NCBI GenBank assembly: GCA_001829185.1
Contig: MIAR01000044.1
Location: 1-36,088, forward strand
DNA length: 36,088 bases
From: Spirochaetes bacterium GWB1_60_80
GTDB taxonomy: Bacteria; Spirochaetota; Spirochaetia; Treponematales; UBA12059
Reading direction: 5' to 3'
Part shown: positions 1,389-36,088 of the stretch, one piece after another
Layout: each line of letters begins with the position of its first letter
How positions within the stretch are numbered: position 1 is the first letter of the stretch
Notes under the pieces: generated by a model
Seen by the model: the letters and a program-made list of their open reading frames with translations, nothing else
Database searches by the model: none
What the model was told of the DNA's origin: nothing
Translations under genes and position numbers: made by a program

Positions 1389-3629
1389 CTAGCCGCGATA
1401 GCGCAGCAGGACGGCGGTAACGTCGTCGGCGATGCGCGCGCCGGAGGTATGGAAACGCCACTCCTGCATGATAAAGTTAAGGGCGCTCTTGGCGTCTTCG
1501 GACGGCGCGCTGGACAGGGCGGTAATAACGCCATCCAGGCCGAACTCCTCGCCGTCGACATTGCGCTGCTCGCTGACGCCGTCGGTATAGATCAAGAGCG
1601 AGTCGCCCGGATTAAGCTTGAAGCGGATCGACTTATAAGGCACAGCCAGACCACCGCGGCCGATCGGGAAACCCTTGTAGGCATCAACGCCTTTCGGCTT
1701 CAGCTCCACCGCCCGCGGCCGGCCTAGCCCGCGGTACAAAATCTCGGTGTGGGCGGCGCTGGTGTATTCCACGTAGCCGGCCTCGTTGAGGCGCAGCAAG
1801 GCGACCGTCAGGTAATTGTCGACCGCTTCCAGCTCGGCTATCAATTCCTCGTTGATGGCGTCCATCACCTTGCCCAGGCTCAGGTTGCGGTATTCGTAGA
1901 AATTGCGGTGAAAGACCGAACGCGCCAGCACCGTAACCAGGCCGCTGGCGATGCCGTGGCCGGAAACGTCGCCTACGACCAAGCCGTCCAGGGTATCGGC
2001 TTGGCTGGTATAGAAATCGAAGAAGTCACCGGAAATGCCGGCTGCCGGCAGCAGCACGAAGGAGGCCTCCCAGCGGCTGGTGCGTGGCTGCTCCTTGGGG
2101 AAGAAGCCCTGTTGTACCTGGACGGCCATGCGCATGTCGGTGGCCGCCGCCTCGTTGGCACCCTTGAGCCGGGCGCTGGCCTCGGACAGCTTGACGTTCA
2201 GGTCGTCCTGCTCCTTCATCCGGTCTTCCAGCTGGTGGGTACGGCTCTGGACCTTGTTCTCCAGCACCACGTTGATGGCCGCCACCTCGCCGTAGACGTG
2301 CACGAACTGCGCCGCCAGGACGGTGGCCGCGCCGAAGGTCAGGGCGAAGAAGCCGTACTGGGCGATACTCTCGAAGACGCCGGTGGTGAAACTGAGCACG
2401 TTGAGGGCGGTGGTGGCGCCGATGACGGCGATGCCGAGCGCCAGCTTGGCGGCATTGAGTCGCCGCAGGCTCCGAAAAAAAATCAGAAAATAATTACGTC
2501 GGCCTTTAGCGGTGCGCCGGTAATGCCGCCATGACCGCCGCATGGGCAGCACCAGATCCATCACCAGGACGTAGGCCGCCGGCAGGAAGGCCACGACGCT
2601 CCAGATGAACTGGACGGTCTCCTTGGGAATGATGAATTGCAAAATCAGGGGAATCACGGCGGCGGCGCTAAACAGCTTGGTGAACAAGGTGGTGTGGTTG
2701 CGCACCGCGGTATCGAAAAAGGCCAGGAAGGCCGGCACCAGGGCGATCAGCGACATGATCTCGAGGCTTTTGACCACGGCGCTATTGATGATGATATCGT
2801 GGACGATATAGGTGCGGCAGAAGAGGTGCAAGGCCAGCAGGCCGATGCCGATCGAGTACATCAGGTAGGCCCGGTTGCGGCGCCGCAGCAGATAGAGCAC
2901 GAAGTGGTAGACGGCGAAGAAGGCGTAGGCGCCGATAAAGGCCAGCTGCACGTACTGCTCGCGCATCGTCACGATATTTTCGTAAGTATCAATCACGTAA
3001 GGCCCGGGCATGAAGAAGCCGGTGCGGTGATCCTGCGGGTCGCCTTCGATCATGAAGGCCAGTACGTTGAGGCCTTCGGTCAGCTGGGTGCTGGCGATAT
3101 CGACGATGGCGCCGCGCACCGCCCGCTCGACGCCCTCCTCGACGCTCAGGTAGCCGAAGCTGGCCTCGTTGCGGAAAATGGTGCCGTTAACGTAGACCTG
3201 CCAATTGGTGCCGACGCCGGCCAGGAAAAGGCCAATGCCGCTTTTCGATTCGATCAGCTCGCGCGGGGCGTCGAAGGGAATCAGGATGGTGTATTGATGG
3301 ACCGGATTCTTGCGGAAATTGAGCAGGTCCATCTCGAAGCGGAATTCCTGCGGGATGTCGTTGAGCAGAAACGACCGGTTGCTGATGCCTTCAAACTGCA
3401 TAAAATAAGTAACCGGGATGGCGCCGACCATGATCGGCCGGTTGCCCGGATTTGGCGGCAGTTCGACCAGGGTTGGATCGTCCGGGTTGAAGCCGCGCAG
3501 CAGCGAGGTGGCATTGAATCCGTCCTGCACGAAGGCTGGCAGGGCCGTCAGGTCGACCCGCTGGGCATGGAGGGCCGCCAGGCAGCCAAAGGCGAAGCAT
3601 ATCAATCCGGCAACACTGCGTCTCATCAT
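1389..3629 (-). CDS. Seven-TM SpoIIE-type PP2C serine phosphatase
   Basis: A membrane-bound serine/threonine phosphatase that probably acts in a partner-switching signalling path. The 746-residue protein has, in order: a signal peptide (about 1-22), an extracytoplasmic region to about 215 that resembles the 7TMR-DISM sensory domain, about seven membrane helices (roughly 225-440), a charged coiled coil (about 455-505), and a C-terminal PP2C/SpoIIE domain. The phosphatase motifs are intact: GDFFDF near 533, VGDVSGHGIASGL near 552-564, IYTDGVSEQ near 680 and DDVTAVLL near 737, which supply the metal-binding aspartates. The start codon overlaps the stop of the upstream bfn-like gene (ATGA), so the two are translationally coupled. 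The target protein (an anti-anti-sigma factor is usual) is not in the window. Confidence 0.9.
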   Translation of the reverse strand: MMRRSVAGLICFAFGCLAALHAQRVDLTALPAFVQDGFNATSLLRGFNPDDPTLVELPPNPGNRPIMVGAIPVTYFMQFEGISNRSFLLNDIPQEFRFEMDLLNFRKNPVHQYTILIPFDAPRELIESKSGIGLFLAGVGTNWQVYVNGTIFRNEASFGYLSVEEGVERAVRGAIVDIASTQLTEGLNVLAFMIEGDPQDHRTGFFMPGPYVIDTYENIVTMREQYVQLAFIGAYAFFAVYHFVLYLLRRRNRAYLMYSIGIGLLALHLFCRTYIVHDIIINSAVVKSLEIMSLIALVPAFLAFFDTAVRNHTTLFTKLFSAAAVIPLILQFIIPKETVQFIWSVVAFLPAAYVLVMDLVLPMRRSWRHYRRTAKGRRNYFLIFFRSLRRLNAAKLALGIAVIGATTALNVLSFTTGVFESIAQYGFFALTFGAATVLAAQFVHVYGEVAAINVVLENKVQSRTHQLEDRMKEQDDLNVKLSEASARLKGANEAAATDMRMAVQVQQGFFPKEQPRTSRWEASFVLLPAAGISGDFFDFYTSQADTLDGLVVGDVSGHGIASGLVTVLARSVFHRNFYEYRNLSLGKVMDAINEELIAELEAVDNYLTVALLRLNEAGYVEYTSAAHTEILYRGLGRPRAVELKPKGVDAYKGFPIGRGGLAVPYKSIRFKLNPGDSLLIYTDGVSEQRNVDGEEFGLDGVITALSSAPSEDAKSALNFIMQEWRFHTSGARIADDVTAVLLRYRG

Positions 3630-4246
3630 TCCCCCTGCAGGCGGTTCAAGGCGTCCCGCAACTCGGCCGCCCGCTCGTAATCTTCGCTCTCCACGGCGTG
3701 ACCCAAGGCTGTTTCCAGCGCTTGACGCTTTTCTTCAAGCGTACCGGCGGCCGGTTCACTGCTGCCCCCCGAGCTGACCGGCTCGTCGACCGACCCGATG
3801 CCCTGCCCGAAGCTCTGCCGGCTGACATCGCGGATCATGTCCACCGGCATGCCGGCCTGCTCGATGACGGCCTCGGCTATGAAGATGCGCGCGCCGGCCC
3901 GCAAGGCCAGGGCCAGGGCATCCGAAGGCCGGGCGTCGATGACCTGGTCGACCTGCCCTTGCCGGACAATCAGCCGGGCATAATAGGTGCCGTCCACCAG
4001 ATCGTTGATCTCGATCTGCAGCAAACTGGCATCCAGCTTGCCCAGTACCGCCAGCAAGAGATCGTGCGTCAGCGGCCGCGTCAACTCAATGTGGCCGAGG
4101 GCAATCAGGATGGCCTGGGTCTCGAGCTGGCCGATAAAAATCGGCACCACCGTGTCCGAGGCCTTGGGGCGTACGAATACCACGTTGCCCTGCTCGGTCT
4201 GTGCGACGGTCCAGATATCGGCTTCCACCAGTGTATTGGCACTCAT
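3626..4246 (-). CDS. Bifunctional nuclease (DUF151) domain protein with UvrB/UvrC motif
   Basis: The protein has 206 residues. The first 140 or so form a BFN/DUF151 domain (LVEADIWTVAQ, VVPIFIGQLETQAI, RPLTHDLL, the block around IDARPSDALALALRAG). The last 35 residues (EEKRQALETAL through DYERAAELRDALNRL) match the UvrB/UvrC motif helix hairpin, which mediates protein contacts. Some DUF151 members have been reported to have nuclease activity; this is not proven for the bacterial family as a whole. The ATG at 4246 is chosen over an in-frame ATG at 4312 because a perfect TATAAT lies at 4260-4265 between the two and the family N-terminus starts here. It is the first gene of a two-gene operon with the PP2C phosphatase. 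Its role there is unknown. Confidence 0.85.
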   Translation of the reverse strand: MSANTLVEADIWTVAQTEQGNVVFVRPKASDTVVPIFIGQLETQAILIALGHIELTRPLTHDLLLAVLGKLDASLLQIEINDLVDGTYYARLIVRQGQVDQVIDARPSDALALALRAGARIFIAEAVIEQAGMPVDMIRDVSRQSFGQGIGSVDEPVSSGGSSEPAAGTLEEKRQALETALGHAVESEDYERAAELRDALNRLQGE

Positions 4247-4259
4247 AACGTATGGTACT

Positions 4260-4265
4260 ATTATA
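4260..4265 (-). promoter_or_regulatory. -10 box of the bfn-like gene, near-leaderless
   Basis: On the minus strand a perfect TATAAT ends 13 bases before the ATG at 4246. The -35 region is weak (TTTTAT at a 17-bp spacing, 4283-4288). No Shine-Dalgarno is present. A start seven bases downstream would give a leader of about six nucleotides. Confidence 0.5.
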
Positions 4266-4374
4266 CGTGGCGTAGCCGACAAATAAAAGCCCTTTCCCGG
4301 CTTCAGGTTCATTATCGGCTAGTTGAAGCGCAAACCGCAGCCCTAGGCGCTATTTTGGGAGGAAGACAGGCACG

Positions 4375-4995
4375 ATGGCACGAAATTCATACGAAAAAGC
4401 CGACTTCTGGGCCTTGAAGGCCAGAAAAGAAGGCTACCCGGCACGCAGCGTCTACAAGTTGGCCGAGATTGCCCAAAAATTCGGTATCTTCAAACCAGGC
4501 TACCGCATTCTGGATATTGGGGCGGCGCCGGGTAGCTGGAGTCTGTGGCTGCTGCGCCAAATGGGCGGCCAGGGCTTCCTGGCGGCGGTCGACTTGTCGC
4601 CCTTGGCCATCAGCGGCCCGGCCGACCAATTTTCCTTCATGCAAGGCGACTTGTACAGCCCAGCCGTCCGGCAGCGCCTGCGCGGCTTCGGCCCCTATAA
4701 CGCCATCATTTCGGACGCGGCGCCGGCCACCAGCGGCAACCGCTCGCTGGATACCGACCGTTCCGAGGCCATCGTCGAGGCTGTCCTGGATTACGCCGAA
4801 GAAATGCTGGTAACGGGCGGTAATGTCGTCTGCAAATTATTCATCGGCGGCGGCCAGCGGGCGCTCTTGGACCGCATGAAGCTGAGCTTTCAGACCGCCC
4901 GGGCCTTCAAGCCCGAAGCCTGCCGCCAGGAAAGTTTCGAGACCTTCCTGGTCGGCCTGAACCGCCGCCCAGCACCGCCTTTAACAGGTTGTTGA
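4375..4995 (+). CDS. rlmE: 23S rRNA 2'-O-methyltransferase RlmE (FtsJ/RrmJ)
   Basis: Methylates the 2'-hydroxyl of a uridine in the 23S rRNA A-loop using S-adenosylmethionine. The 206-residue length is typical. The K-D-K-E catalytic set is visible: K in RSVYKL, D in ISDAAP, K in VVCKLF and E in ESFETF. The SAM-binding loop is LDIGAAPGSWS near residue 45. A GGAGG ribosome site lies upstream of the ATG. The last four codons (LTGC) and the stop lie in the TTAA flank and first bases of repeat copy 1. Removing the element and one TTAA would give an ending of LRP and a TGA a few bases into the opposite gene. The enzyme core is unaffected by this change. Confidence 0.95.
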   Translation: MARNSYEKADFWALKARKEGYPARSVYKLAEIAQKFGIFKPGYRILDIGAAPGSWSLWLLRQMGGQGFLAAVDLSPLAISGPADQFSFMQGDLYSPAVRQRLRGFGPYNAIISDAAPATSGNRSLDTDRSEAIVEAVLDYAEEMLVTGGNVVCKLFIGGGQRALLDRMKLSFQTARAFKPEACRQESFETFLVGLNRRPAPPLTGC

Positions 4996-5117
4996 AAAAG
5001 CCGGTTGCTTTCTCAACAACCTTAACAATTCCTCGCATAGCTTGCGCTATGCTGCGTAATTGTACCGGCTTTTGAAGTGTTGAAAAGCCGCATCCGCGTT
5101 TTTCAACACCCTGTTAA
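4981..5117 (+). mobile_element. 129-bp MITE-like element, copy 1, with TTAA flanks
   Basis: The element is 4985-5113, flanked on both sides by TTAA. Its ends are imperfect inverted repeats: CAGGTTGTTGAAAAA at the left and, read inward on the other strand, CAGGGTGTTGAAAAA at the right, with about 20 of the first 24 bases matching. Three hairpins follow one another: 4987-5021 (GGTTGTTGA with TCAACAACC), 5035-5052 (GCATAGC with GCTATGC) and 5077-5109 (GTGTTGAAAA with TTTTCAACAC). It has no coding capacity. It separates rlmE from the convergent PTS gene and supplies the stop codons of both. Confidence 0.9.
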
Positions 5118-5593
5118 GGCCCTGATTTGCGGCTTTCTATATAGGTGATCAATTCCGCCGTGCCGGCCTGGCTGAACAGCAAGGCGCGGAAAGCCGACTC
5201 CGAGCAGAGCCCGGCGATGGTCGACAGGATGGCCAGGTGAGCCTGGCGGCTGGCCGAAACCAGGAAAAAAGCCGCTTTTACCGACTCGACCGACTCGACC
5301 GACTCGACAGACTCATCCTTGCCCCAGGCCAAGGCGTACCGCGGATAGGCGACCGCTACCAGGCTATCGGCCTCACTACTAATAAGCAGACTGGCCGGAT
5401 GCGGCAGGGCGATGCCCAGGCCGATGGCAGTTGAAGCCGAGGCCTCCCGCGCCAGGGTTTCGCGCAGCAGCGCCGCCCGGTCCAGGCCGGCTGGCAAGCT
5501 CAGGCCCTGCACGGTTTCGCGGATAAACTGCTCGGGAGAGCCCGACGCGATGTTGTACCACACCCCGCCCCTGCGCAATAATTCTGCCAGCAC
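5114..5593 (-). CDS. PTS EIIA type-2 (PtsN/fructose-mannitol-like) protein
   Basis: A phosphotransferase EIIA domain of the fructose/mannitol/nitrogen class, which would be phosphorylated on histidine by HPr. The protein has 159 residues. The active-site block is IGLGIALPHP, with the expected His. The C-terminal region (FFLVSASRQAHLAILSTIAGL) matches the family. The GTG start is fixed by an in-frame TAG two codons upstream; a run of eight Gs sits in the ribosome-site position. The TAA stop lies within the TTAA flank of repeat copy 1. A 9-bp in-frame tandem repeat encodes VES repeated three to four times before the KAAFFLV strand. With no EIIB/EIIC nearby, a regulatory PtsN-like role is as likely as sugar transport. 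Confidence 0.82.
   Translation of the reverse strand: MLAELLRRGGVWYNIASGSPEQFIRETVQGLSLPAGLDRAALLRETLAREASASTAIGLGIALPHPASLLISSEADSLVAVAYPRYALAWGKDESVESVESVESVKAAFFLVSASRQAHLAILSTIAGLCSESAFRALLFSQAGTAELITYIESRKSGP
5279..5313 (-). repeat. 9-bp in-frame tandem repeat within the PTS gene
   Basis: On the minus strand GAGTCGGTC is repeated about four times and is translated as ESV units. It lies in a surface loop between two conserved blocks, so length changes would keep the frame. Confidence 0.8.
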
Positions 5594-5876
5594 AGCCTAC
5601 CCCCCCCGCCACCGGATTTTGTCTCCAATAGCTCGATAACAGCTTACGTTGAACTGTCCCCTTTGGCAAGTAGCCGAAACAGGCCCCGGCGGCTTGAAGC
5701 GAGCCGGCCAGCGGCCACCGCTAACGCATTATCCGTAACAAAATAGCCGAATCAGACTTTGGTAGTAGCAGCAGACGCCAAAATGCGTTATTTTAAGCTC
5801 TGCCCACTCAGTAAAACTAGGTTTGAATCGACCGAGCTGCGGCGCGGTTACGGTTCAAGACACACAGGAGTATTGT
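5594..5876. other. Intergenic region upstream of the M16 protease gene
   Basis: 283 bp without a convincing gene. It holds the C8 run at 5600-5607 before the PTS start codon and a perfect 9-bp inverted repeat, TAACGCATT (5722-5730) with AATGCGTTA (5782-5790), 51 bp apart. AGGAG lies just before the M16 ATG. I could not identify a confident promoter. Confidence 0.6.
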
Positions 5877-8768
5877 ATGACCAGACAAAATCTTTTCCGA
5901 ACCGGGCGCTTCCTGGCGGCTGGGCTTGTTTTGGCCCTGCTGGCCGGCTCGTTGCTAGCCTGTATCGGCACACCCAATCCGCCTATCACCGGCCAGCCTC
6001 AGGCCGGCAGCGCCTTGCCCGCCAGCATTAGCTATAAGCCGGAAGACCCGCTACCGCTGGCGCCGGAACTGTCCCGAGCCACCCTGCCCAATGGCCTGAC
6101 CACCTATGTGCGCTTCAATGGTAATCCGGGTGGACGCATTATCCTGTACCTGGTGATAGCGGCCGGCTCGGCCGACGAAACCGAGGAGCAGCTGGGTTAC
6201 GCCCATTTCATCGAGCACATGGCCTTCAACGGCAGCGCCAGCTTCCCGAAAAACGAGCTGGTCAATTACCTGCGCTCCATCGGCATCCGCTTTGGCGCCG
6301 AGATCAACGCCTACACCAGCCGCGAAAACACCGTCTTCCAGCTGGAAATTCCGACCGACCAGCGCCAATACCTGGAAACCGGCCTGCAAGTGCTGCGGGA
6401 CTGGGCCACGGCCATCACCTTTGACCCGGCCGAAGTCGAAAAGGAAAAAGGCGTCATCCTCGAAGAAATGCGGCTGCGCCTGAACCCGCATGAGGCCGCC
6501 CGCAACGCCGAGTTGCCGGTCTTGCTGGGCGATTCCCGGCACGCCTTCCGCGACCCGATCGGCAGCGAAGCCAGCATTCGCAACGCCACGGCCGAATCGC
6601 TGCGCGCCTTTTTCAGCGAACACTACCGGCCGGAGCGCATGGCGGTCATCGCCGTCGGCGACCTCAACCACGGCACCATGGTCCGGACCCTGCGCGAAAC
6701 CTTCAATTTCACCAATGCCGACGGCCAGACCAAGCCGCGCAACTTCTATCCGGTACTGCCGGCGGCCGAACTGGCGCTGCTGGCCAGCATCAATGACGAT
6801 TTTGACCAGGCCATCGTCCAGTACCAGAAGGTCGTCCCCTACCGGCCGGAAACCACCATCGCCGATTACTACCAACTGATGATCAACCGGGTGGCGGTGG
6901 AGGCTATCCGCCTGCGCCTGGCCAACCTGACCCGCTCCACCGACGTGCCCTGGCTGTCGGCCAGCTTTTCCAGTGATTACTTTTTCGGCCTGACCCGGAT
7001 CTACAACTTCTCCCTGAGCGCCAACCCGGGCGAAGAAGTGCGGGCCTTCAGCCAGCTGGCCACCGAGGTGGAACGCATCCGCCAGCACGGCTTTACGGCC
7101 AGCGAAGTGCAGCGCACCATCGATATGTGGCGCACCTGGCTAACCACCCTGGACATCGAGGACCAGGACGTGCGCAGCGACAGCTTCGCCGATGAGTACG
7201 TGCGCAACTTCATGTACGGCGAACCGGTGCCCGGCATCGTCAACGAACGGGTCTACATCCGCGACAGCCTGGATAGAATGACCCCGGCCAGCCTGCTGGC
7301 CGAAGCCCGACGCATCCTGAGCAACGACGAGGGCTTCGTCTCGGTGCGCACTACGCGCGGTCTCTGGAACAGCCAGCTGACTCGCCCGGTCTTCGACCAA
7401 GCCTTGGCCCAGGCTCGCCAGCAAGCGCTGACTGCCCTGGCGGACGGCGCCGGCCAGATCGGCCTGTTCGACAACCTGCCGAAACCGGGTCGCATCACGG
7501 GACAGGCCGCCCTGCCGGACGATATCCAGGAATTCCGCCTGTCCAACGGCGCCCGCGTCCTACTCAAGCCGACGCTGTTTGACCGCGACACCGTCCGATT
7601 CCTGGCTTTTGCCGAAGGCGGCTACACCAGCTGGCCGGCCGAGCTGCACGACAGCCTGTCACTGGCGCCCAGTTTGCTGGGCAGCGCCGGCTACGGCCAG
7701 CTGGACTCCCTGGCTTTCGATACCGTCACGGCCGCCTACCGCGCCAACCTCAGCTGGGGCTTCGACCAGGACGTGCGCCTGATTCATGGCGAAACCACCC
7801 GCCAGGACCTGGCCGCCATGTTGCGTCTGGTCTACCTGCTGGCGGCCGAACCCGGCCAGGACGTCGACTCCTTCAACCGCCAGCGCGACCTGCTGGCCAG
7901 CCAGTTTGTCGGCTATGCCAACGACCCGGACTACCGCTTCCAGACCGCCTGGAACCGTCACCTCTACGGCGACAACCCGCGGCTGGCCGGCCTGTCGGCC
8001 GACGTCGTCCGCGCCATCGACTTTGCCAGCACCCGTCAGGCCGTGCTGGACGGTTTTGCCAACGCGGCGGCCTTTACCTACGTCCTGATCGGCGACTTCA
8101 GCATCGAGGAAGTCAAACCGCTGCTTGAGCAGCACCTCGGCGCCATCCCGGCCGGGCAGTCCCATCCTAGTCAGCTGCTTAATCCGCTGACCCCGCGCGC
8201 CGACGGCAACGGCCGCCACGATTTCGCCTATGCCCGCGAGCCGCGCTCCAGCGTCCGCATGGTCTGGTCGGCCCCGGCCGAATGGTCGTACGACCGCCAG
8301 AAGACCCTGGAATACCTGACCTACGCCCTCAATAACCGCCTGCTGGACGCCCTGCGCGAAGACCTGGGCGGCACCTACGTGGTCAGTGTGGACAGCGACT
8401 TCCGCCGCTCGCCGGTCAGCCAGTTCTCGGTCATCGTCTCCTTCGACACTCACCCCGACAAGGTGGACAGCCTGGTGGCCGAGGTGGACCGCGAGATTGC
8501 CAGCCTGCTCCAGGACGGCCTACCGGCCATGTACATCCAGCAGATTCGCGCCGCCGTCGGCCGCAGCCTGCAAGGCCGTCAGAACACCAACGAATTCTGG
8601 TTGGGCGGCCTCTTGCAGGCCATGATAAACGGCCAGGACTTTAACCTAAGCCAGCGCGAGCTGGCCACCGTTAACCTGGTCGACGGCGAGACCTTCCGCA
8701 GCTTGGCGGCCGAAGTCTTCCAATCCGGCCAGCGCTTCGTCTACGTCATGAAGCCGCAAGCCGACTAA
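5877..8768 (+). CDS. M16 (pitrilysin/PqqL-like) zinc protease lipoprotein
   Basis: A two-half M16 metallopeptidase of 963 residues. A lipoprotein signal (LLAGSLLAC) anchors it outside the inner membrane. The zinc motif H-x-x-E-H is HFIEH (H110, E113, H114). The third ligand is one of the two glutamates in VILEEMRL near residue 196. The C-terminal half carries a second M16 domain without the zinc motif, as in PqqL-type single-chain members. The start follows AGGAG and precedes the signal peptide; in-frame sequence before it lacks a signal. A strong terminator follows at 8789. It is probably a single-gene unit that degrades peptides in the periplasm or at the membrane surface. The substrate is unknown. 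Confidence 0.93.
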   Translation: MTRQNLFRTGRFLAAGLVLALLAGSLLACIGTPNPPITGQPQAGSALPASISYKPEDPLPLAPELSRATLPNGLTTYVRFNGNPGGRIILYLVIAAGSADETEEQLGYAHFIEHMAFNGSASFPKNELVNYLRSIGIRFGAEINAYTSRENTVFQLEIPTDQRQYLETGLQVLRDWATAITFDPAEVEKEKGVILEEMRLRLNPHEAARNAELPVLLGDSRHAFRDPIGSEASIRNATAESLRAFFSEHYRPERMAVIAVGDLNHGTMVRTLRETFNFTNADGQTKPRNFYPVLPAAELALLASINDDFDQAIVQYQKVVPYRPETTIADYYQLMINRVAVEAIRLRLANLTRSTDVPWLSASFSSDYFFGLTRIYNFSLSANPGEEVRAFSQLATEVERIRQHGFTASEVQRTIDMWRTWLTTLDIEDQDVRSDSFADEYVRNFMYGEPVPGIVNERVYIRDSLDRMTPASLLAEARRILSNDEGFVSVRTTRGLWNSQLTRPVFDQALAQARQQALTALADGAGQIGLFDNLPKPGRITGQAALPDDIQEFRLSNGARVLLKPTLFDRDTVRFLAFAEGGYTSWPAELHDSLSLAPSLLGSAGYGQLDSLAFDTVTAAYRANLSWGFDQDVRLIHGETTRQDLAAMLRLVYLLAAEPGQDVDSFNRQRDLLASQFVGYANDPDYRFQTAWNRHLYGDNPRLAGLSADVVRAIDFASTRQAVLDGFANAAAFTYVLIGDFSIEEVKPLLEQHLGAIPAGQSHPSQLLNPLTPRADGNGRHDFAYAREPRSSVRMVWSAPAEWSYDRQKTLEYLTYALNNRLLDALREDLGGTYVVSVDSDFRRSPVSQFSVIVSFDTHPDKVDSLVAEVDREIASLLQDGLPAMYIQQIRAAVGRSLQGRQNTNEFWLGGLLQAMINGQDFNLSQRELATVNLVDGETFRSLAAEVFQSGQRFVYVMKPQAD

Positions 8769-8788
8769 CGCGACTCTGCCCACTGTTT

Positions 8789-8829
8789 AAAAAGACCGGT
8801 CAGCGCCTGGGCGTTAGCCGGTCTTTTTT
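8789..8829 (+). terminator. Rho-independent terminator after the M16 protease
   Basis: AAAGACCGG pairs with CCGGTCTTT around a GC-rich loop, followed by a T-run. It sits 21 bp after the M16 stop and 22 bp before the end of the convergent DUF554 gene. The A-rich left arm would also give U residues on the opposite strand, so it may serve both genes. Confidence 0.88.
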
Positions 8830-8850
8830 GGCTGCCTGATACCGACAAGC

Positions 8851-9621
8851 TCAGATAAACGGTATGTATTTGAAAAGAATCACCACCCCGACCATCACCG
8901 GCAGGGCGGGCAAAAAGTCGCCGGTCTTGATCTTCTTGAGCTCGAGCAGATTGAGGCCGATCATGATGACCAGGGCGCCGCCGATGGCCGAAAGCTCGGT
9001 CAAGAGCTCGGCCGAGACCAGCGGCTTCAGCCAGGTGGACAATAGGGTCAGGCCACCCTGGTAGACCAGCACCGACAGGGCGGAGAAGCCGACGCCGATG
9101 CCCATGGCGCCGGTAAACATGATGGCGATGAAACCATCCATGACGCTCTTTGTTATAAGCAACGTGTAGTCGCCCTCGGCGCCGGCCTTGAAGGAGCCAA
9201 CCAGGGCCATGGCGCCGACGCAGAACAAGACCGAGGCGTTGAGGAAACCGTAGGCGAAACTGGCCCGGGGCACGCTTGGGGCCGACTGGCCCGCGTCAAC
9301 CGTCAGAGCGGCTGCGCCGGCCCGGCCAGCCTGGTCGGCCTGGTCGGCCTGGCCAAAGCGCTTGCCCAGCCAGACGCCCAGGCGGAAGATGGCGGCCTCG
9401 ATGCCCAGGGCGTTGCCGATCAGGCCGCCGATAATCAGGCTGAGGGCCAAGGCGATCGGCTGCTGGCCGCCCAAGGCCAGCGAGAAGCCGATGATCAGGG
9501 ATATAACGCCGGTGGCCGCGAAAATGAGCTGGCGGGCGGCTTCGGACAAGCCTTTGCGTAAAAGCAGGCCGATAATGGTACCAAGTATGATGGTGCCGAC
9601 ATTGATGAAGGTGGCAATCAT
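8851..9621 (-). CDS. DUF554 (YdfK-type) membrane protein
   Basis: A 256-residue polytopic membrane protein of the DUF554 family. The typical N-terminus (MIATFINVGTIILGTIIGLL) and about six or seven hydrophobic segments are present, including a Gly-rich helix at IIGFSLALGG and a last helix near LVIMIGLNLL. The function of the family is not established; transport is likely. The ATG at 9621 follows AAGGAG at good spacing, and upstream in-frame sequence is not conserved. A loop near residue 90 carries a 9-bp tandem repeat encoding QADQADQAG (9331-9354), which lengthens the segment after the RFG stretch. The gene is divergent from the Cys-cluster gene at 9722. Confidence 0.88.
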   Translation of the reverse strand: MIATFINVGTIILGTIIGLLLRKGLSEAARQLIFAATGVISLIIGFSLALGGQQPIALALSLIIGGLIGNALGIEAAIFRLGVWLGKRFGQADQADQAGRAGAAALTVDAGQSAPSVPRASFAYGFLNASVLFCVGAMALVGSFKAGAEGDYTLLITKSVMDGFIAIMFTGAMGIGVGFSALSVLVYQGGLTLLSTWLKPLVSAELLTELSAIGGALVIMIGLNLLELKKIKTGDFLPALPVMVGVVILFKYIPFI

Positions 9622-13309: not shown

Positions 13310-13446
13310 TTAACAGGGTGTTGAAAAACGCGGATGCGGCTTTTCAACACTTCAAAAGCCGGTACAATTACGCAGCATAGCGCAAGCTATGCGAGGAATT
13401 GTTAAGGTTGTTGAGAAAGCAACCGGCTTTTTCAACAACCTGTTAA
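13310..13446 (-). mobile_element. 129-bp MITE-like element, copy 3, with TTAA flanks
   Basis: The element is 13314-13442, in the same orientation as copy 2 and with no difference that I can see. It is flanked by TTAA on both sides. The TAA stop of the NYN-domain gene is made from its right TTAA flank. Here the element lies within a run of same-strand genes, 53 bp upstream of the cyclophilin start. Confidence 0.9.
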
Positions 13447-14213
13447 CGCTTACGGATATAAATCAGCTTGCCCTGGTCGACCAGGTTGGCGCGCTCTTCG
13501 ACCTCGAACCAGCCGCAATTCTTGATTAGCTCGCCCAGCTTGCGGAAGCCATAATTGCGCGGGTCGAACTCCGGCTGGCGGTTGGCGATGTACTGCCCGA
13601 CCGAGCCGAGATAGGCCCAGCCGGACTCGTCGGCCGAATCCTCCACCGCCGCCACCAGCCAGTTGCGCAGCTTCTTGTCCAGCTTGAGGTCCTGGTCGAC
13701 CGGCTTCTTGCGCGCCGTCTCCTTGTCTTTGGTGGCGACCACTTCCTCGTCCGGCGTACGCAGGATTTCGGTATAGGTAAATTTGTCGCAGGCCGCCACG
13801 AAGGGCTTAGGCGTCTTGCGTTCGCCGAAGCCCAGCACCAGCTTGCCGGCTTCGCGCAGCCGGGCCGCCAGCCGGGTAAAGTCCGAGTCGCTGGACACCA
13901 CGCAGAAACCGTCCAGCTTTTCGGTGTACAGAAGGTCCATGGCGTCGATAATCATGGCGCTGTCGGTGGCGTTCTTGCCGGTGGTGTAGGAAAACTGCTG
14001 AATCGGCTGGATGGCGTAGGACAACAGACGCTCCTTCCAGTGCTTCAGGTTGGTGGTGGTCCAGTCGCCGTAAATGCGCTTGACGCTGGCCACCCCGTAT
14101 TTGGCCACTTCGGCCAGCAGGCCCTCGGTGATGGGGGCCTGGGTGTTATCGGCATCGATCAGCACGGCCAGCTTGAGCTGGTGTCCGGTCTCGGCCTTCA
14201 GTGCAACAGCCAT
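13443..14213 (-). CDS. NYN (LabA/DUF88-type) nuclease-fold protein with C-terminal LOTUS/OST-HTH-like domain
   Basis: The 256-residue protein begins with a PIN-like NYN domain: AVLIDADNTQAP with the first acidic residues near 20, GKNATDSAMIIDAMDLLY near 80, and VVSSDSDFTRLAARLREAG near 105. These acidic positions form the metal site of the family, which is associated with RNA cleavage. After a Lys-rich linker (about 150-170) the last 85 residues (LRNWLVAAVEDS through FDPRNYGFRKLGELI) look like an OST-HTH/LOTUS RNA-binding domain. AGGAG precedes the ATG at 14213. The gene follows the helicase pair by 64 bp on the same strand. The stop codon is formed by the TTAA flank of repeat copy 3. Confidence 0.87.
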   Translation of the reverse strand: MAVALKAETGHQLKLAVLIDADNTQAPITEGLLAEVAKYGVASVKRIYGDWTTTNLKHWKERLLSYAIQPIQQFSYTTGKNATDSAMIIDAMDLLYTEKLDGFCVVSSDSDFTRLAARLREAGKLVLGFGERKTPKPFVAACDKFTYTEILRTPDEEVVATKDKETARKKPVDQDLKLDKKLRNWLVAAVEDSADESGWAYLGSVGQYIANRQPEFDPRNYGFRKLGELIKNCGWFEVEERANLVDQGKLIYIRKR

Positions 14214-14277
14214 GGTTTCTCCTGTCGGCGGCAAGCGGCCGCCCTTTAAAATTAGGTAATCATTCTATCAAGCCCGG

Positions 14278-18274: not shown

Positions 18275-18406
18275 ACAAAACTCCATTTTGTCATGATGCT
18301 CACTACCGAAACGGTTGACAAGAAGTAAAATTGATATTAAATTACCTATATACCGTTCACTCGATAGAACGAACCTCATTCGGCATCTGAAAATTTCAGG
18401 AATGCC
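18275..18406 (+). promoter_or_regulatory. Promoter with flanking palindromes upstream of the FMN-binding lipoprotein
   Basis: TTGACA (18315-18320, perfect), a 17-bp spacer and TAAATT (18338-18343) give a strong promoter in an unusually AT-rich stretch. Three inverted repeats surround it: ACAAAA-N5-TTTTGT (18275-18291), CGTTC-N8-GAACG (18354-18371) and CTGAAA-A-TTTCAG (18387-18399), the last extended by GGCAT and ATGCC to 18382-18406. They look like operators or leader hairpins. No specific regulator can be named. Confidence 0.6.
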
Positions 18407-18435: not shown

Positions 18436-19323
18436 ATGCTCAAGAAACTGCTGCTCCTGCCCTTGGCCATCCTGCTCCTGGCTGGTTGCGCCAGGACCTT
18501 GGAAAGCGCTACCGCCACCAACTACTTCGTCGCCCATCAAGGCGGCTACATCGGCGAATCCACCGTCACCGTTGATAAAGACCAGAACGTCGCCGCCGCC
18601 AGCTTTGCCGAGTGGCAGGGTCCGGGCGGCTGGGCCGAGAACAACTCACCCGACGGTACAACCCTGGTCGACGGCGCCGTGGTGCGCGTGGCGGATCCCC
18701 TGGCCAATACCGGCCACAGCGATCCGGCCATCAAGGGCTACATGTTCTACATCTACAACGTCCAGAATGGCCTTGGCGTCTGGTCCCAGTTCACCCCCGG
18801 CGCCGAGGGCTTTGCCCGCCCCAGCCGCCAGTTCGAGCGTGACTTCGAAGGCCTGATGGGCAACCCGATCCGCGCCGCCGCCTACGTCGCCGCCGCCCGG
18901 GCCGATACCCTGGTTAACGTGACCATCGACGGCCTGACCGTCACCGTTGGCCGCCCGGCTTCCCAGACCGTGCACTATGGTCACATGAACAAGGCTGACC
19001 CGACTGCCACCTATATGCCGCTAAACGCCAATGCTATCGGCTACCGTTACAACTACCAGGCCACCATCGACTTCTTTATGGCCAATCCGGCCGCCAACTA
19101 CGCCGCCTTCACCATGGTCAAGGCCAAGATCGCCCTGACCGAAGACAAGGCCATTGACGCCAATGCCGACGTCGCCGCCTATACCGCCGCCGACGATAGC
19201 GTCTACATGGTAGCCGACGCTGTTTCCGGCGCTACCTATTCCGATTTCCCGCACTACGCCCTCGAGCTGCAGGCCGCCTACAAGATGGCCATCGCCGCCC
19301 AGTTGGTCGCTTTCCAGAAGTAA
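18436..19323 (+). CDS. FMN-binding-domain lipoprotein (PplA-like), probably covalently flavinylated
   Basis: The 295-residue protein starts after TGGAGG with a lipoprotein signal (LLLAGC, Cys near 18). Near the C-terminus it carries DAVSGAT (D261-T267), matching the D-x-x-S-G-A-T/S sequence where ApbE-type transferases attach FMN to threonine. A helix rich in Ala follows, as in FMN_bind domains. Only one such site is visible; Listeria PplA is recalled as having two. It would sit outside the cytoplasmic membrane and pass electrons from quinol to external acceptors. A strong terminator follows, so it may be made in excess over the downstream prenyltransferase, NDH-2 and polyprenyl synthase genes. 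No ApbE gene is present in the window. Confidence 0.75.
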   Translation: MLKKLLLLPLAILLLAGCARTLESATATNYFVAHQGGYIGESTVTVDKDQNVAAASFAEWQGPGGWAENNSPDGTTLVDGAVVRVADPLANTGHSDPAIKGYMFYIYNVQNGLGVWSQFTPGAEGFARPSRQFERDFEGLMGNPIRAAAYVAAARADTLVNVTIDGLTVTVGRPASQTVHYGHMNKADPTATYMPLNANAIGYRYNYQATIDFFMANPAANYAAFTMVKAKIALTEDKAIDANADVAAYTAADDSVYMVADAVSGATYSDFPHYALELQAAYKMAIAAQLVAFQK

Positions 19324-19358
19324 GACCGCGCCGCGCGGCACCTTCCGTAATTACCAGG

Positions 19359-19398
19359 CGGGTAGCCGGCACCCTGTGGTCCCGGCTACCCGTTTTTT
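19359..19398 (+). terminator. Rho-independent terminator after the FMN-binding lipoprotein
   Basis: CGGGTAGCCGG pairs perfectly with CCGGCTACCCG across a 12-nt loop and is followed by six Ts. It lies between the lipoprotein and the prenyltransferase gene and would reduce transcription of the downstream quinone and NDH-2 genes relative to the lipoprotein. Confidence 0.92.
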
Positions 19399-19468
19399 AA
19401 GCCGCCTCCGGGCGCAACCGGCCTTTGGGCCGGACAAACGTGCTGCGGCGCTGCCGAAAAGGATCGTG

Positions 19469-20416
19469 ATGAGTCTAAAAAGCTATCTGAAACTGGTCGA
19501 GATCCAGACCAAGGTCGCCAGCGTCATTCCCTTCCTGGCGGGCAGCCTGTACGCGCGCGGCCGCTTTGGCGCCATTGACTGGGTCAACGCCGGCCTGATG
19601 CTGGTGGCCCTGTTGGCTATCGATATGGCTACCACCGCCGGCAACAATTACATGGATTACAAACGGGCCTTTCAACGGCACGGCTTTGGCTACGAGGTGC
19701 ACAATGCCATCGTCCGTGACGGCATGTCCGAAGGTTTCGTCAAGCTGGTACTGATCCTGTTGCTGGCCGTGGCCACTGCTTTCGGCCTACTCCTGACCGC
19801 CCGGACCGACCTTTTGGTACTGGCGCTTGGCATCGGGGCTGGCCTGGTCGGCTTCCTCTATTCCTTCGGCCCGGTTCCCATCTCGCGCACCCCTTTCGGC
19901 GAACTGTTTTCCGGCGGCGTCATGGGCCTCCTCATTCCCTTCATCGCGGTCTACATTCAGGCTCCGGCCGGTTCCCTGCTGAGCTGGAACTGGACAGCGG
20001 CCAGTCTGCAACTGAACCTGAACTGGCCCGAACTACTGTACCTAGCCCTAGTCGACCTGCCCCTTTTCGGCGGCATCGCCAATATTATGTTGGCCAATAA
20101 CCTGTGCGACCAGGCTGAAGACCTGGCCAACCGGCGCTACACCCTGCCGCACTTCGTCGGCACCAAGGCTGGCTTGCTCCTATTCGCCGCCCTCTACGCC
20201 ATCGGCAGCCTGGCGGCGCTTAGCCTGGTGATCCTAGGCGTTTTCCCCTGGTGGTTCCTGGCCTTCGGCCTGACCATCGTCCCGGTAGCCGGCAACGTGC
20301 GGCGCTTTTTCGCCAAACAAAGCAAGGCCGAGACCTTCGCCCTGTCCGTCAAGAATTTCGTCCTGCAGGGCTTGGCCCTCTGCCTGCTACTGCTGGCCAG
20401 AGTCTTTATACAGTGA
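19469..20416 (+). CDS. menA: UbiA-family prenyltransferase (MenA/DmkA type)
   Basis: A membrane prenyltransferase of 315 residues that would join a polyprenyl chain to 1,4-dihydroxy-2-naphthoate, giving demethylmenaquinone. The two Asp-rich motifs are visible: NNYMDYKRA near 59 and NNLCDQAEDLANRR near 210. Eight or so hydrophobic helices are predicted (for example LVLILLLAVATAFGLLL and LALGIGAGLVGFLYSFG). The ATG at 19469 follows AAAAGGA and starts at the family N-terminus (KSYLKLVEIQTK). It lies between the FMN lipoprotein and NDH-2. No other menaquinone gene is in the window, and a different aromatic acceptor cannot be excluded. In Listeria the equivalent DmkA serves extracellular electron transfer. 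Confidence 0.85.
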   Translation: MSLKSYLKLVEIQTKVASVIPFLAGSLYARGRFGAIDWVNAGLMLVALLAIDMATTAGNNYMDYKRAFQRHGFGYEVHNAIVRDGMSEGFVKLVLILLLAVATAFGLLLTARTDLLVLALGIGAGLVGFLYSFGPVPISRTPFGELFSGGVMGLLIPFIAVYIQAPAGSLLSWNWTAASLQLNLNWPELLYLALVDLPLFGGIANIMLANNLCDQAEDLANRRYTLPHFVGTKAGLLLFAALYAIGSLAALSLVILGVFPWWFLAFGLTIVPVAGNVRRFFAKQSKAETFALSVKNFVLQGLALCLLLLARVFIQ

Positions 20417-20424
20417 ATCAACTG

Positions 20425-20469
20425 TCAGTCCGGGCAATCCCGGCCGGACTGGTTTAAGATACGGGTATC
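20425..20469 (+). other. Hairpin and 12-bp palindrome between menA-like and ndh genes
   Basis: CAGTCCGG (20425-20432) pairs with CCGGACTG (20444-20451) but lacks a T-run, so it is a weak terminator candidate. Just after it is the palindrome GATAC-GG-GTATC (20458-20469). The remaining bases up to 20559 show no clear promoter apart from the ribosome site AAGGAG. Confidence 0.45.
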
Positions 20470-20559
20470 GTTGGAACATCCTGAAAAGCCCCAGGCCAGG
20501 CCAGCACCGCGCAACCGGTGGCAGGGCAGTGTGGGCACCAAGAGCGCAAGGAGCTGAAC

Positions 20560-22656
20560 ATGAGCGACCAAACCAGAATTGTCATCCTCGGTGGCGGCTA
20601 CGCCGGCGTCGAGGCGGCCAAGAAACTGCACAAGCGCTACAAACGCCGCACCAATATTAACATCACGCTGATCGACCGAAATCCCTACCATACGCTGATG
20701 ACCGAGCTGCACGAGATCGCCGGCAGCCGCACCGAGCCGGAAGCCGTCCAGATCAGCTACAAACGCATCTTCGCCGGCACCAAGGTCAAGGTGATCATCG
20801 ACGAGATCGACGGCATCGACTTCCAGCAACGACGCCTCAAGTCAGGCATCGCGACCTACGACTACGATTACCTGGTGCTGGCCACTGGCGGCCATCCGGA
20901 ATTCTTCGGCGTGCCCGGCATCCAGCAGCATTCCTTTACGCTCTGGTCGCTGGAAGACGCCATCCGCATCCGCGAACACGTCGAGCTGATGTTCCGCGCC
21001 GCCGCCAAGGAGCCGAATCACGACAAGAAACGCAAGCAGCTGACCTTCGTGGTGGCCGGCGCCGGCTTTACCGGCATCGAGCTGATCGGCGAACTGATGG
21101 AGCGGGCCGACGTCCTCTGCCGCAAGTACCACATCGACCGCGCTGCGGTCAAGTTGATGGTGGTGGAAGCCCTGCCCCACATCCTGCCCATCCTGGCCGA
21201 GAAGCCGCGCGCGAAGGCCAAGAAGTACATGGAAAAACGCGGCGTGGAAATATTGACCAGCGCCCCCATCGTCAAAGGCGAAAAAGGCCGCTACATCCTC
21301 AAGGACAATCGAGTCATCGAAGCCGAAACCTTCGTCTGGACCTGCGGCGTGCAGGGTTCGGAATTCACCGCCAAGATCAACCTGACCAAAGGCCGGGTTT
21401 CCAACGACAAGTGCTCGGTGGCCACGCCCGAAGGCATCCACGGCATGGCGGCCTGCTACTTCGACGAGGAAGAAAAGAACATCGTCGGCGAACGCGGCCG
21501 CATCCTGGTCAACGAGAATATGCAATCGGTCGACCATCCCAACGTCTACCTGGCCGGCGACATGATCTGGTTCCTCAAAGACGAGAAGGTGATGCCGCAG
21601 ATCGTCGAAAACGCCCTGCAGAGCGCCGCTACCGCTGCCGCCAACATCGCCGCCCAGATTGACAAGATGGCCGCCAAGCCCTACCAGCCCAAGTTCCACG
21701 GCTTCATGATTTCAATTGGCAGTCGCTTTGCGGTGGCCTCGGTCATGAACATGAACCTGGCCGGCTTCTCGGCCATGGCCCTCAAGCACTTCGTCAACCT
21801 GCATTATCTGTGGGGCTTGGCCGGCTTCAACGCCTGCTGGGCCTACCTCTGGGAAGAGTTCCTCGACGTCAAGAATAAGCGCAGCCTAATCCACGGCCAC
21901 GGCGCCGCCCGGATCCCGGCCTTCTTCGCCCTGCCGGCCCGCTTGTGGCTGGGCCTGATCTGGGTCATGGAAGGCGTTAACAAGATCGGCGAAGGCTGGC
22001 TGAAGTTCGACAAATCGCGTTCCACCTGGATGTTCAGCCGCGGCGTCGTCCAGGCTGGCAGCCCGACGGCGGCCGTCAGCGCCGGCAACGTGGTGGTGAC
22101 CAGTGCCCAAACCGCGGCCGACGCCGCCACGGCGGCCACCGACGCCGGCTGGGAAACCGGCGCTGCCGCTGTCGAGGCCACCGGCGACACCCTCGTCGTG
22201 GTGGGCAACGCCGTCAGATCCAGCGCCCAGACCGTCCTCAAGAAAGTCTGGGACCTGGACAAGCCCATCCTGTCGCCCGATTCCGGCCTGGTCACCTGGT
22301 TCCGTACCACCTTCATGGATGGCATGGCCGCGCACCTCAACTTCGCCGCCTTCCAGGTAATGATCGTCTCGGTTGAGATCCTAATCGGCCTGGCCCTGAT
22401 GAGCGGCCTGCTGACCTTCCCGGCGGCCGGCCTGTCCATCATCATGTGCCTGGTCTTTACCCTGTCGGGTATGTTTACCTGGAACCAGCTGTGGTTCGTC
22501 TTCCTGGCCATCGTCATGATGGGCGGCGCCGGACACGCCTTGGGGCTGGATCACTACGCCCTCCCCTGGGTCAAGGACCGTTGGAACTCCAGCAAGCTAG
22601 CCCAGCGCAGCTACCTGTATTCAGGCGAGCCGCGGCTGCGCAAGAAAAAGCGTTAA
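20560..22656 (+). CDS. ndh: Type II NADH dehydrogenase fused to a DoxX-like membrane domain
   Basis: A 698-residue flavoprotein that would pass electrons from NADH to quinone without pumping protons. Residues 1-430 are the NDH-2 core: FAD-binding GGGYAGVEAAKKL at 10-22, NAD-binding VAGAGFTGIELIGEL near 163, and NVYLAGDMIW near 326. The usual C-terminal membrane helix is followed by a further membrane part starting at RIPAFFALPARLWLGLIWV near 450. That part has a DoxX-like pattern and several helices up to the C-terminus, interrupted by an Ala/Thr-rich soluble linker (about 497-552). Listeria EET Ndh2 also carries an additional C-terminal membrane domain. CAAGGAG precedes the ATG. The polyprenyl synthase gene follows directly. 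Confidence 0.9.
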   Translation: MSDQTRIVILGGGYAGVEAAKKLHKRYKRRTNINITLIDRNPYHTLMTELHEIAGSRTEPEAVQISYKRIFAGTKVKVIIDEIDGIDFQQRRLKSGIATYDYDYLVLATGGHPEFFGVPGIQQHSFTLWSLEDAIRIREHVELMFRAAAKEPNHDKKRKQLTFVVAGAGFTGIELIGELMERADVLCRKYHIDRAAVKLMVVEALPHILPILAEKPRAKAKKYMEKRGVEILTSAPIVKGEKGRYILKDNRVIEAETFVWTCGVQGSEFTAKINLTKGRVSNDKCSVATPEGIHGMAACYFDEEEKNIVGERGRILVNENMQSVDHPNVYLAGDMIWFLKDEKVMPQIVENALQSAATAAANIAAQIDKMAAKPYQPKFHGFMISIGSRFAVASVMNMNLAGFSAMALKHFVNLHYLWGLAGFNACWAYLWEEFLDVKNKRSLIHGHGAARIPAFFALPARLWLGLIWVMEGVNKIGEGWLKFDKSRSTWMFSRGVVQAGSPTAAVSAGNVVVTSAQTAADAATAATDAGWETGAAAVEATGDTLVVVGNAVRSSAQTVLKKVWDLDKPILSPDSGLVTWFRTTFMDGMAAHLNFAAFQVMIVSVEILIGLALMSGLLTFPAAGLSIIMCLVFTLSGMFTWNQLWFVFLAIVMMGGAGHALGLDHYALPWVKDRWNSSKLAQRSYLYSGEPRLRKKKR

Positions 22657-22732
22657 GGTAGTTGCCCTGAAAAAGCCAGAAAAAGCCGCCAGCCTTGACG
22701 CCATCTATAACCATGGCTGGGTCAAGGCCGAG

Positions 22733-23881
22733 TTGGCCTACGTCCGGTACTTGATGCGGGGCTTGTTCGAGGCCGAAGCCCGCCTGTCGCCCTTGGTGGC
22801 GCCAGCCCTGCACAGCATGACCATCGCCTCCGGCAAGCTGCTCCGCCCCTTTCTGGTTTTGCTCGGCGCCAGGCTGGTGAGCGGGCCAGACGGCGACTAC
22901 GGCCGTTTACCAGCCCCGCCGACCGCCTTCGACGATTCGATCCTGCCGCGGCTGACCGAGAGCATCTTCAGCCAAATGCGGCGGCACGGCGTCAAGCGGC
23001 CAGAGGACATCGATACCAGCTGGCGCGCTGCGCCGGCCTTCCCGGGCGGCCTGCCGCAGCGGATTTATATCCTGGCCGCCGCCCTGGAAATTCTCCATTT
23101 GGCGACGCTGACCCATGACGACGTCATCGACGACTCACCGGAGCGGCGCGGCCAACCCTCGGCCCGCCAGTCGGTCGGAGTACAACACGCCGTGCTGTTG
23201 GGCGACCTGCTCCTGACGCTCTGCTTCAGCCTGATCAACGAAACCGGCGACGCCCAGACCGGCCAACTGCTGGCCGGCATGGTGCGCCTGATGGTGCGCA
23301 GCGAGTTCATGCAGGCTATGAATCGCCGACAACTAGCTACGCTGCTTGAACGACCCAGCCTGCGCCAGCACAACCGTATCATCGGCGGCAAGACTGCTTT
23401 ACTCTTTACCCTGGCGCTGAGCTGCGGGGCCGCCGAACTGGCCGCCGACCGTACCAGCCTGGAGAAGCTGCGCCGCGCCGGCTACAACCTCGGCCTGGCC
23501 TTCCAGCTTGACGACGACCGCCTGGATTTCCTGGCCGATCGCCAGGCCTTCGGCAAGCCGCCGGGACAGGACCTGCGCGACGGCCAGCTGACCCTGCCGC
23601 TGATCAGCGCCCTTTTGGACAAGCGCCCGGCCAACCGGGCGGCACGCCGCGAACTGCGCGAATTGGTGCTGCGCTTTCATGAAGGCGACGAGGGCTGCTT
23701 CGGCCGCCTGGTGGAGCTGGTGGAGCGGCTGGGTGGCTTTGCCGCCAGCCGTCGATTGAGCGCCAATTACCTGGCCAAGGCCGACGGCGAGCTGCGCAGC
23801 CTGGTCGACCGCTACCAAAGCCGCCAGACCGGCGCGCTGCTCGGCCAGCTGCTCGGCTTCCTGGCCAGCCGAGACTACTGA
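22733..23881 (+). CDS. Polyprenyl diphosphate synthase (HepT/DmkB type)
   Basis: A trans-isoprenyl diphosphate synthase that lengthens farnesyl diphosphate for the quinone side chain. The first Asp-rich motif is HDDVIDD (128-134) and the second is QLDDDRLDF near 258. GKLLRP near 35 is the usual GKRLRP block. An insertion of roughly 45 residues lies between that block and the first motif. The start is uncertain: TTG at 22733 is given, but the reading frame stays open back into ndh and the conserved-looking helix continues upstream, so CTG at 22667 behind AAGGTAG is an alternative. No in-frame ATG exists. The gene follows ndh closely and probably supplies the tail for the MenA-like enzyme. Confidence 0.87.
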   Translation: MAYVRYLMRGLFEAEARLSPLVAPALHSMTIASGKLLRPFLVLLGARLVSGPDGDYGRLPAPPTAFDDSILPRLTESIFSQMRRHGVKRPEDIDTSWRAAPAFPGGLPQRIYILAAALEILHLATLTHDDVIDDSPERRGQPSARQSVGVQHAVLLGDLLLTLCFSLINETGDAQTGQLLAGMVRLMVRSEFMQAMNRRQLATLLERPSLRQHNRIIGGKTALLFTLALSCGAAELAADRTSLEKLRRAGYNLGLAFQLDDDRLDFLADRQAFGKPPGQDLRDGQLTLPLISALLDKRPANRAARRELRELVLRFHEGDEGCFGRLVELVERLGGFAASRRLSANYLAKADGELRSLVDRYQSRQTGALLGQLLGFLASRDY

Positions 23882-36000: not shown

Positions 36001-36088
36001 GTCGAGTAGACCGGGGGAATCGCACCCCCAGCCTCTCACAGAACCGTACGTGACAGTCTCCCGTCATACGGCTCTTCTCATTCAACCA
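36001..36088 (-). mobile_element. 3' end of a group II intron (domains V and VI), truncated by the window
   Basis: On the minus strand 36074-36041 forms a 34-nt domain V: it opens with GAGCCGTA, which pairs with TACGGTTC at its end, contains the AGC triad, and has a GAGA tetraloop on an inner stem (TGACGG with CTGTCA). Domain VI follows (36040-36001), a GGGGG/CCCCC stem with a bulged A at 36007, seven bases from the 3' end. The intron ends ...CTACTCGAC at 36001. The rest, presumably with a reverse transcriptase gene, lies beyond the window. A short frame across 35888-36085 is not a gene. Confidence 0.88.

Follow-up and report, generated by a model that had tools for sequence, protein, structure and literature searches.

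A NADH dehydrogenase–polyprenyl synthase cassette next to a separate predicted flavoprotein gene in a spirochaete genome

Introduction

Four open reading frames, all on the + strand, occupy positions 18436-23881 of a 36,088-nucleotide stretch of DNA from Spirochaetes bacterium GWB1_60_80 (contig C44 of its assembly), hereafter referred to as the window. The original prediction, made from the sequence alone, was that these genes encode, in one row, an FMN-binding lipoprotein, a MenA/DmkA-type prenyltransferase, an NDH-2 with an extra membrane domain and a polyprenyl synthase, and that they resemble the flavin-based extracellular electron transfer (EET) locus of Listeria, with the lipoprotein in the role of PplA. 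Do the four genes form a single EET locus, or do they belong to separate units? We consider it probable that two independent units lie side by side: a stand-alone flavoprotein gene (18436-19323) and a quinone-reduction cassette (19469-23881), the PplA partner of which was not found.

The source organism is a spirochaete, as had been predicted, and its relatives belong to the Spirochaetales. Gene-presence counts were made in 99 genomes, the source genome included, and the neighbourhood of NDH-2 was studied in 80 related loci from GTDB genomes; a genome of the same genus (G001) was used as a genus-mate for comparison. Absences from the source genome rest on targeted searches, and they are uncertain because the assembly (3.6 Mb, 96% complete) consists of 59 contigs. 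No riboswitch or other Rfam RNA was found near the locus. The end of a group II intron is present at the contig edge (window positions 36001-36076, − strand; RF00029, 63.9 bits).

Genes of the cassette

The enzyme functions assigned to the last three genes by the original prediction were all confirmed. The first of these genes (19469-20416, + strand, with ATG 19469 as the better start) encodes a menA/dmkA-type 1,4-dihydroxy-2-naphthoate (DHNA) prenyltransferase, which scored 311.6 bits with NF004752 (cut-off 289) and 1.2e-16 with Pfam UbiA, and in which the NxxxD and DxxxD motifs are present. It is the only UbiA-family gene found in the source genome and was not found in the genus-mate, so that within the genus it has been seen only in the source genome. 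The strong UbiA matches of many relatives (about 1e-48 to 1e-55) are missing from the source genome, and none was found in G001.

The NDH-2 gene (20560-22656, + strand, better start ATG 20560) was identified by its homology to Bacillus YjlD (1.1e-59) and to solved NDH-2 structures (PDB entries 9pxk, 4nwz and 5na1, 1e-53 to 1e-59; chain 4nwz_A, 1.2e-59). The catalytic part is followed by an alanine-rich linker and by extra hydrophobic C-terminal segments, forming a membrane domain that scores as DoxX in relatives. The protein is 76% identical to that of the genus-mate. The last gene (22733-23881, + strand) encodes a long-type polyprenyl diphosphate synthase (Pfam 2.7e-50, two DDxxD motifs). Judging from the sequence, its true start probably lies upstream of TTG 22733, at about 22660: the frame is open upstream (22600-22733) and is similar there to the N-terminal part of the synthase in a related locus (L145). 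This upstream frame contains no ATG, GTG or TTG, which may reflect an unusual start codon or an error in the sequence. All three genes are intact, with their catalytic motifs present.

NDH-2 loci in related genomes

The synthase was found beside NDH-2 in 74 of the 80 loci, EetA in 15, ApbE in 10, and EetB and menA in 5 each; some loci also carry a PplA-like protein. In spirochaete EET-type loci, the synthase follows ndh2 in the same order as in the window. One spirochaete locus (L148) contains EetA, a PplA-like protein, ApbE on the opposite strand, NDH-2 and the synthase, and two others (L165 and L167) contain EetA, an EetB fusion, ApbE, NDH-2 and the synthase. The order in Clostridium prolinivorans (L216) is apbE, ndh2, eetA, eetB, synthase, and the window NDH-2, over its length, shares 44% identity with that of this locus. 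This identity and the shared pairing indicate that the NDH-2–synthase pair of the window is homologous to the EET core, and it is this pair that forms the conserved core of EET-type loci in Spirochaetales. The menA gene, which adjoins ndh2 and the synthase gene in five other spirochaete loci with differing arrangements, is a local addition to the cassette.

Three further settings were observed. In L102 (G026, 2300-9080) and L169, from another family, ndh2 and the synthase gene lie near apbE, ubiD and ubiA, and it is possible that a different quinone route feeds the same NDH-2 there. In a Treponema MAG (L208, 1765-3810), a protein combining FMN_bind with a fumarate-reductase-like FAD_binding_2 part occurs near EetA/EetB and NDH-2. 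The window itself contains a NYN/LOTUS-domain gene (13443-14234, − strand) 62-64% identical to the NYN genes of L145 and L154, which are located directly upstream of EetA and NDH-2; it is perhaps a remnant of an older gene order.

A profile built from spirochaete PplA-like proteins (A3) matched 62 of the 99 genomes, strongly in about 42. Strong matches were obtained in 40 of the 50 genomes with NDH-2, but in only two of the 49 without it (Fisher 9e-16, a test that ignores relatedness). With this profile, no PplA-like match was found in the source genome or in G001.

Quinone supply

A look-up of men genes elsewhere in the genome, proposed with the original prediction, yielded no match for MenD. 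The search for the classical and futalosine menaquinone routes covered MenD and MqnA/MqnD, and none of these was convincingly identified. PF02621 hit a single protein, an NMT1-like binding protein that was rejected as MqnA/MqnD: it also matches NMT1 families, and its gene is followed by those for an ABC permease and an ATPase. Since neither MenD nor a convincing MqnA/MqnD was found, MenA probably uses scavenged DHNA. Lactiplantibacillus is known to use DHNA although it makes no quinone of its own (PMC10746273, PMC9888254), and scavenging as in that genus is the simplest reading.

The lipoprotein family

The first gene of the row (18436-19323, + strand, better start 18436) is preceded by a predicted promoter-like site (TTGACA-17-TAAATT, 18315-18343, + strand; 10 of 12 consensus positions matched in a scan). 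Its product is a secreted lipoprotein with a signal peptide, a lipobox (LLAGC) and a DAVSGAT sequence, a predicted site of flavinylation by ApbE. Homologues (66-79% identity) are present in 24 of the 99 genomes, the source genome among them; in a phylum-wide sample they occur in only 11 of 393 genomes, including one further family. The protein family is lineage-restricted. The motif, in the form D[AV]x[ST]GAT (Dxx[ST]GAT), is invariant in all 23 aligned members, far beyond chance. A clear lipobox cysteine was observed only in the window protein and that of the genus-mate (possibly also in G010), most of the other homologues having a plain signal peptide.

No Pfam or NCBIfam profile matched the window lipoprotein, and the FMN_bind profile (PF04205, gathering cut-off 22 bits) gave no match up to an E value of 10; the search of the whole genome with FMN_bind reported only hits on contigs C32 (two) and C54, leaving the lipoprotein unreported. 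Likewise, no match was obtained in a sequence search of the PDB, and a profile comparison of the lipoprotein family with the FMN_bind proteins of the same genome detected nothing. The comparison with A3 extended over 23 columns, with a probability of 25%, and at the sequence level the family shows no significant resemblance to either PplA-like or FMN_bind proteins. The AlphaFold model was weak (pLDDT 58.8) and could not be improved, because the wider homologue search added only one further family. Foldseek returned nothing significant with this low-confidence model; the VIA comparison ranked 3o6u first (Z 7.0, rmsd 3.7, 108 residues aligned), followed by IscU (Z 6.1). The alignment with 3o6u, a structure recognized by an FMN_bind-type profile, covers the N-terminal strands and the motif helix.

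The lipoprotein shares with the FMN_bind (PF04205) proteins RnfG, NqrC, 2kzx and 3o6u an [ST]GAT flavinylation motif followed by a helix and, with 3o6u, a weak fold match, but it differs from them in the lack of detectable sequence similarity and in having a large additional segment that separates the motif from the N-terminal strands. As Dxx[ST]GAT is invariant and the best, albeit weak, fold match is to an FMN_bind-family structure, covalent FMN is likely. Taken together, sequence and model suggest that the protein is FMN_bind-like but has diverged and carries a large insertion, that it is likely to be flavinylated by ApbE, and that it possibly represents a new flavoprotein family. Of the designation "FMN-binding lipoprotein", the signal peptide, lipobox and motif are confirmed, whereas the family assignment it implies finds no match in Pfam, NCBIfam or PDB and weak support from the fold. 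Predicted covalent flavoproteins that form a conserved family hence escape the Pfam FMN_bind model and, for this reason, may be missed in surveys based on it.

Separation of the lipoprotein gene from the cassette

The position and strand of the four genes agree with their description as a row, but the row is interrupted before menA. An intrinsic terminator is predicted at 19356-19398 (+ strand), consisting of a perfect inverted repeat followed by TTTTTT (−30.2 kcal/mol, z −4.5); it is the only one in the window, with none expected by chance. Strong terminators also follow 18 of the 20 lipoprotein homologues checked (19 of 21 with the window included), and the same script found them in seven of 400 random stretches. 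Neither the menA-ndh2 nor the ndh2-synthase junction yielded a terminator; with 143 bases between menA and ndh2, menA may be transcribed separately. Because the predicted terminator splits it from menA, the lipoprotein gene appears to be transcribed on its own, although terminators can be leaky.

The relatives point in the same direction. None of the 23 lipoprotein homologues adjoins menA, ndh2 or the synthase gene (several contigs are short, and their ends limit some of these comparisons), and none of the 80 NDH-2 loci contains a homologue. In G001, the lipoprotein gene is on another contig, without menA, ndh2 or the synthase gene. Furthermore, PplA is present as well in 21 of the 24 genomes that carry the lipoprotein, so the lipoprotein is not normally a PplA substitute. 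The PplA role originally proposed for it is contradicted by the terminator, by its occurrence away from the cassette genes in relatives and by its membership of another, lineage-restricted family; what stands of the Listeria-like set is an NDH-2–synthase–MenA group of the Firmicute EET core kind.

Flavinylation genes and Rnf

The genome contains one ApbE, on contig C47, and EetB (PF07456, 1.7e-30) beside NusG_II (EetA, 2.8e-15) on contig C41, away from the locus. The homologues sought elsewhere in the genome were therefore found, and the absence of any ApbE, named originally as a ground for abandoning the EET interpretation, did not occur. However, two Rnf operons are also present in the genome, as is a small lipoprotein of the FMN_bind type; these offer other candidate substrates of ApbE, and the presence of ApbE is weak support for EET. 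EetB exports FAD for ApbE and has been linked to both Rnf and EET (PMC9973259); it is weak support too, being present in 35 of the 39 genomes of the order, including one (G032) that yielded no relative of NDH-2. As EetB and ApbE also serve Rnf, the presence of ApbE, EetA and EetB alone does not show EET, and the two Rnf operons can explain all three. Adjacency, or the presence of ApbE and EetB, is consequently a poor guide to EET where Rnf is also present. The RnfG of one Rnf operon (L129, 6639-7265) has the sequence ITAST, and that of the other has the flavinylation motif DGITGAT.

Discussion

If all four genes formed a flavin-based EET locus, the lipoprotein would replace PplA and pass electrons from demethylmenaquinol to outside acceptors. 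Adjacency on one strand, the lipobox and DAVSGAT of the lipoprotein, and the occurrence of ApbE, EetA and EetB elsewhere in the genome are all consistent with such a locus, as is the finding that the source genome and the genus-mate, neither of which yielded a PplA-like match, both have lipobox cysteines. We nevertheless regard it as decidedly unlikely, given the strong terminator before menA, the unlinked gene of the genus-mate and the coexistence with PplA in most carriers. Moreover, because spirochaetes are enclosed by an outer membrane, a lipoprotein of the inner membrane would be exposed to the periplasm rather than to the outside. A narrower version, in which, in the source genus, another flavinylated family has replaced the missing PplA and is fed by NDH-2 and menaquinone on scavenged DHNA, seems to us very unlikely; if true, the flavin carrier of an EET-type chain would have been independently replaced by a family that is mostly unlipidated in relatives.

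It is also somewhat doubtful that the cassette merely recycles NADH onto membrane quinone for a different quinol oxidase or reductase, unconnected with any flavinylated protein or outside acceptor. No ApbE, EetA or Pfam FMN_bind gene lies near the cassette, no PplA-like gene was found, and EetA/EetB and ApbE also serve Rnf (PMC9973259), all of which would fit ordinary recycling, but within the order, NDH-2 of the window type and PplA-like proteins strongly tend to occur together, and this NDH-2 adjoins EetA, EetB and ApbE in several relatives. Alternatively, the cassette could be a decaying relic, left once PplA and the usual UbiA had been lost and retained for other reasons, with menA gained by transfer. 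The lack of the strong UbiA of many relatives, both here and in G001, and the restriction of menA to the source genome within the genus would agree with this scenario. It is unlikely, however, since three intact genes with catalytic motifs, and an NDH-2 76% identical to that of the genus-mate, suggest that the cassette is under selection.

We therefore favor two independent units. The product of the first would be an exported protein, lipidated in the source genus and probably facing the periplasm, which probably carries one covalent FMN attached at DAVSGAT by the ApbE of the genome. In the second, the polyprenyl synthase would provide the quinone tail, MenA would join it to DHNA, probably taken up from outside, and NDH-2 would transfer electrons from NADH via FAD to (demethyl)menaquinone without proton pumping. 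It is possible that the lipoprotein receives electrons from the quinone chain, but genomic linkage does not support this. The core of flavin-based electron export, known mainly from Gram-positives, is widespread in the outer-membrane Spirochaetales, and the NDH-2–synthase core can apparently persist when the PplA partner is lost.

Comparison with known systems

The published operational rule for flavin-based EET calls for a NADH dehydrogenase with a transmembrane helix within a flavinylation-associated cluster (PMC8238504). The NDH-2 of the window has the membrane part, but ApbE (C47) and FMN_bind (C32 and C54) lie on other contigs and, to judge from Pfam matches, the locus would not be called an EET system under this rule. 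Among the other hallmarks of EET, a dedicated DmkA and DmkB (MenA and the polyprenyl synthase) are present in the cassette, and EetB with EetA on C41; a PplA-type flavinylated lipoprotein was not found in the source genome. Iron reduction by the source organism is not supported.

The FLEET system of Listeria and Lactiplantibacillus comprises Ndh2, DmkA, DmkB, PplA, FmnB (ApbE), FmnA, EetA and EetB. The locus resembles it in the adjacency of an NDH-2 with a membrane extension, a MenA-type DmkA and a polyprenyl synthase, and in the presence of ApbE, EetA and EetB homologues in the genome. It differs in that no PplA was found, ApbE and EetA/EetB are on other contigs, Rnf is present, and the first gene of the row belongs to another family and a separate unit. 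The same enzyme functions occur in a module described in 2019 and composed of cad (cAD1 pheromone precursor), apbE, NDH2, DHNA prenyltransferase and HepPP synthase (PMC7074142). A Spirochaete is listed among its carriers, and to call the setting "unexpected", as was done originally, was too strong. The cad-apbE linkage was found only in genomes without rnf (PMC7074142), whereas the source genome contains rnf operons, two in number, and gave no match to cad/PplA. With L148, L165 and L167, the window shares a homologous NDH-2 followed by the synthase, but it lacks their EetA, EetB, ApbE and PplA-like neighbours and has menA. The locus is a reduced and rearranged relative of a known system, located beside an unlinked predicted flavoprotein.
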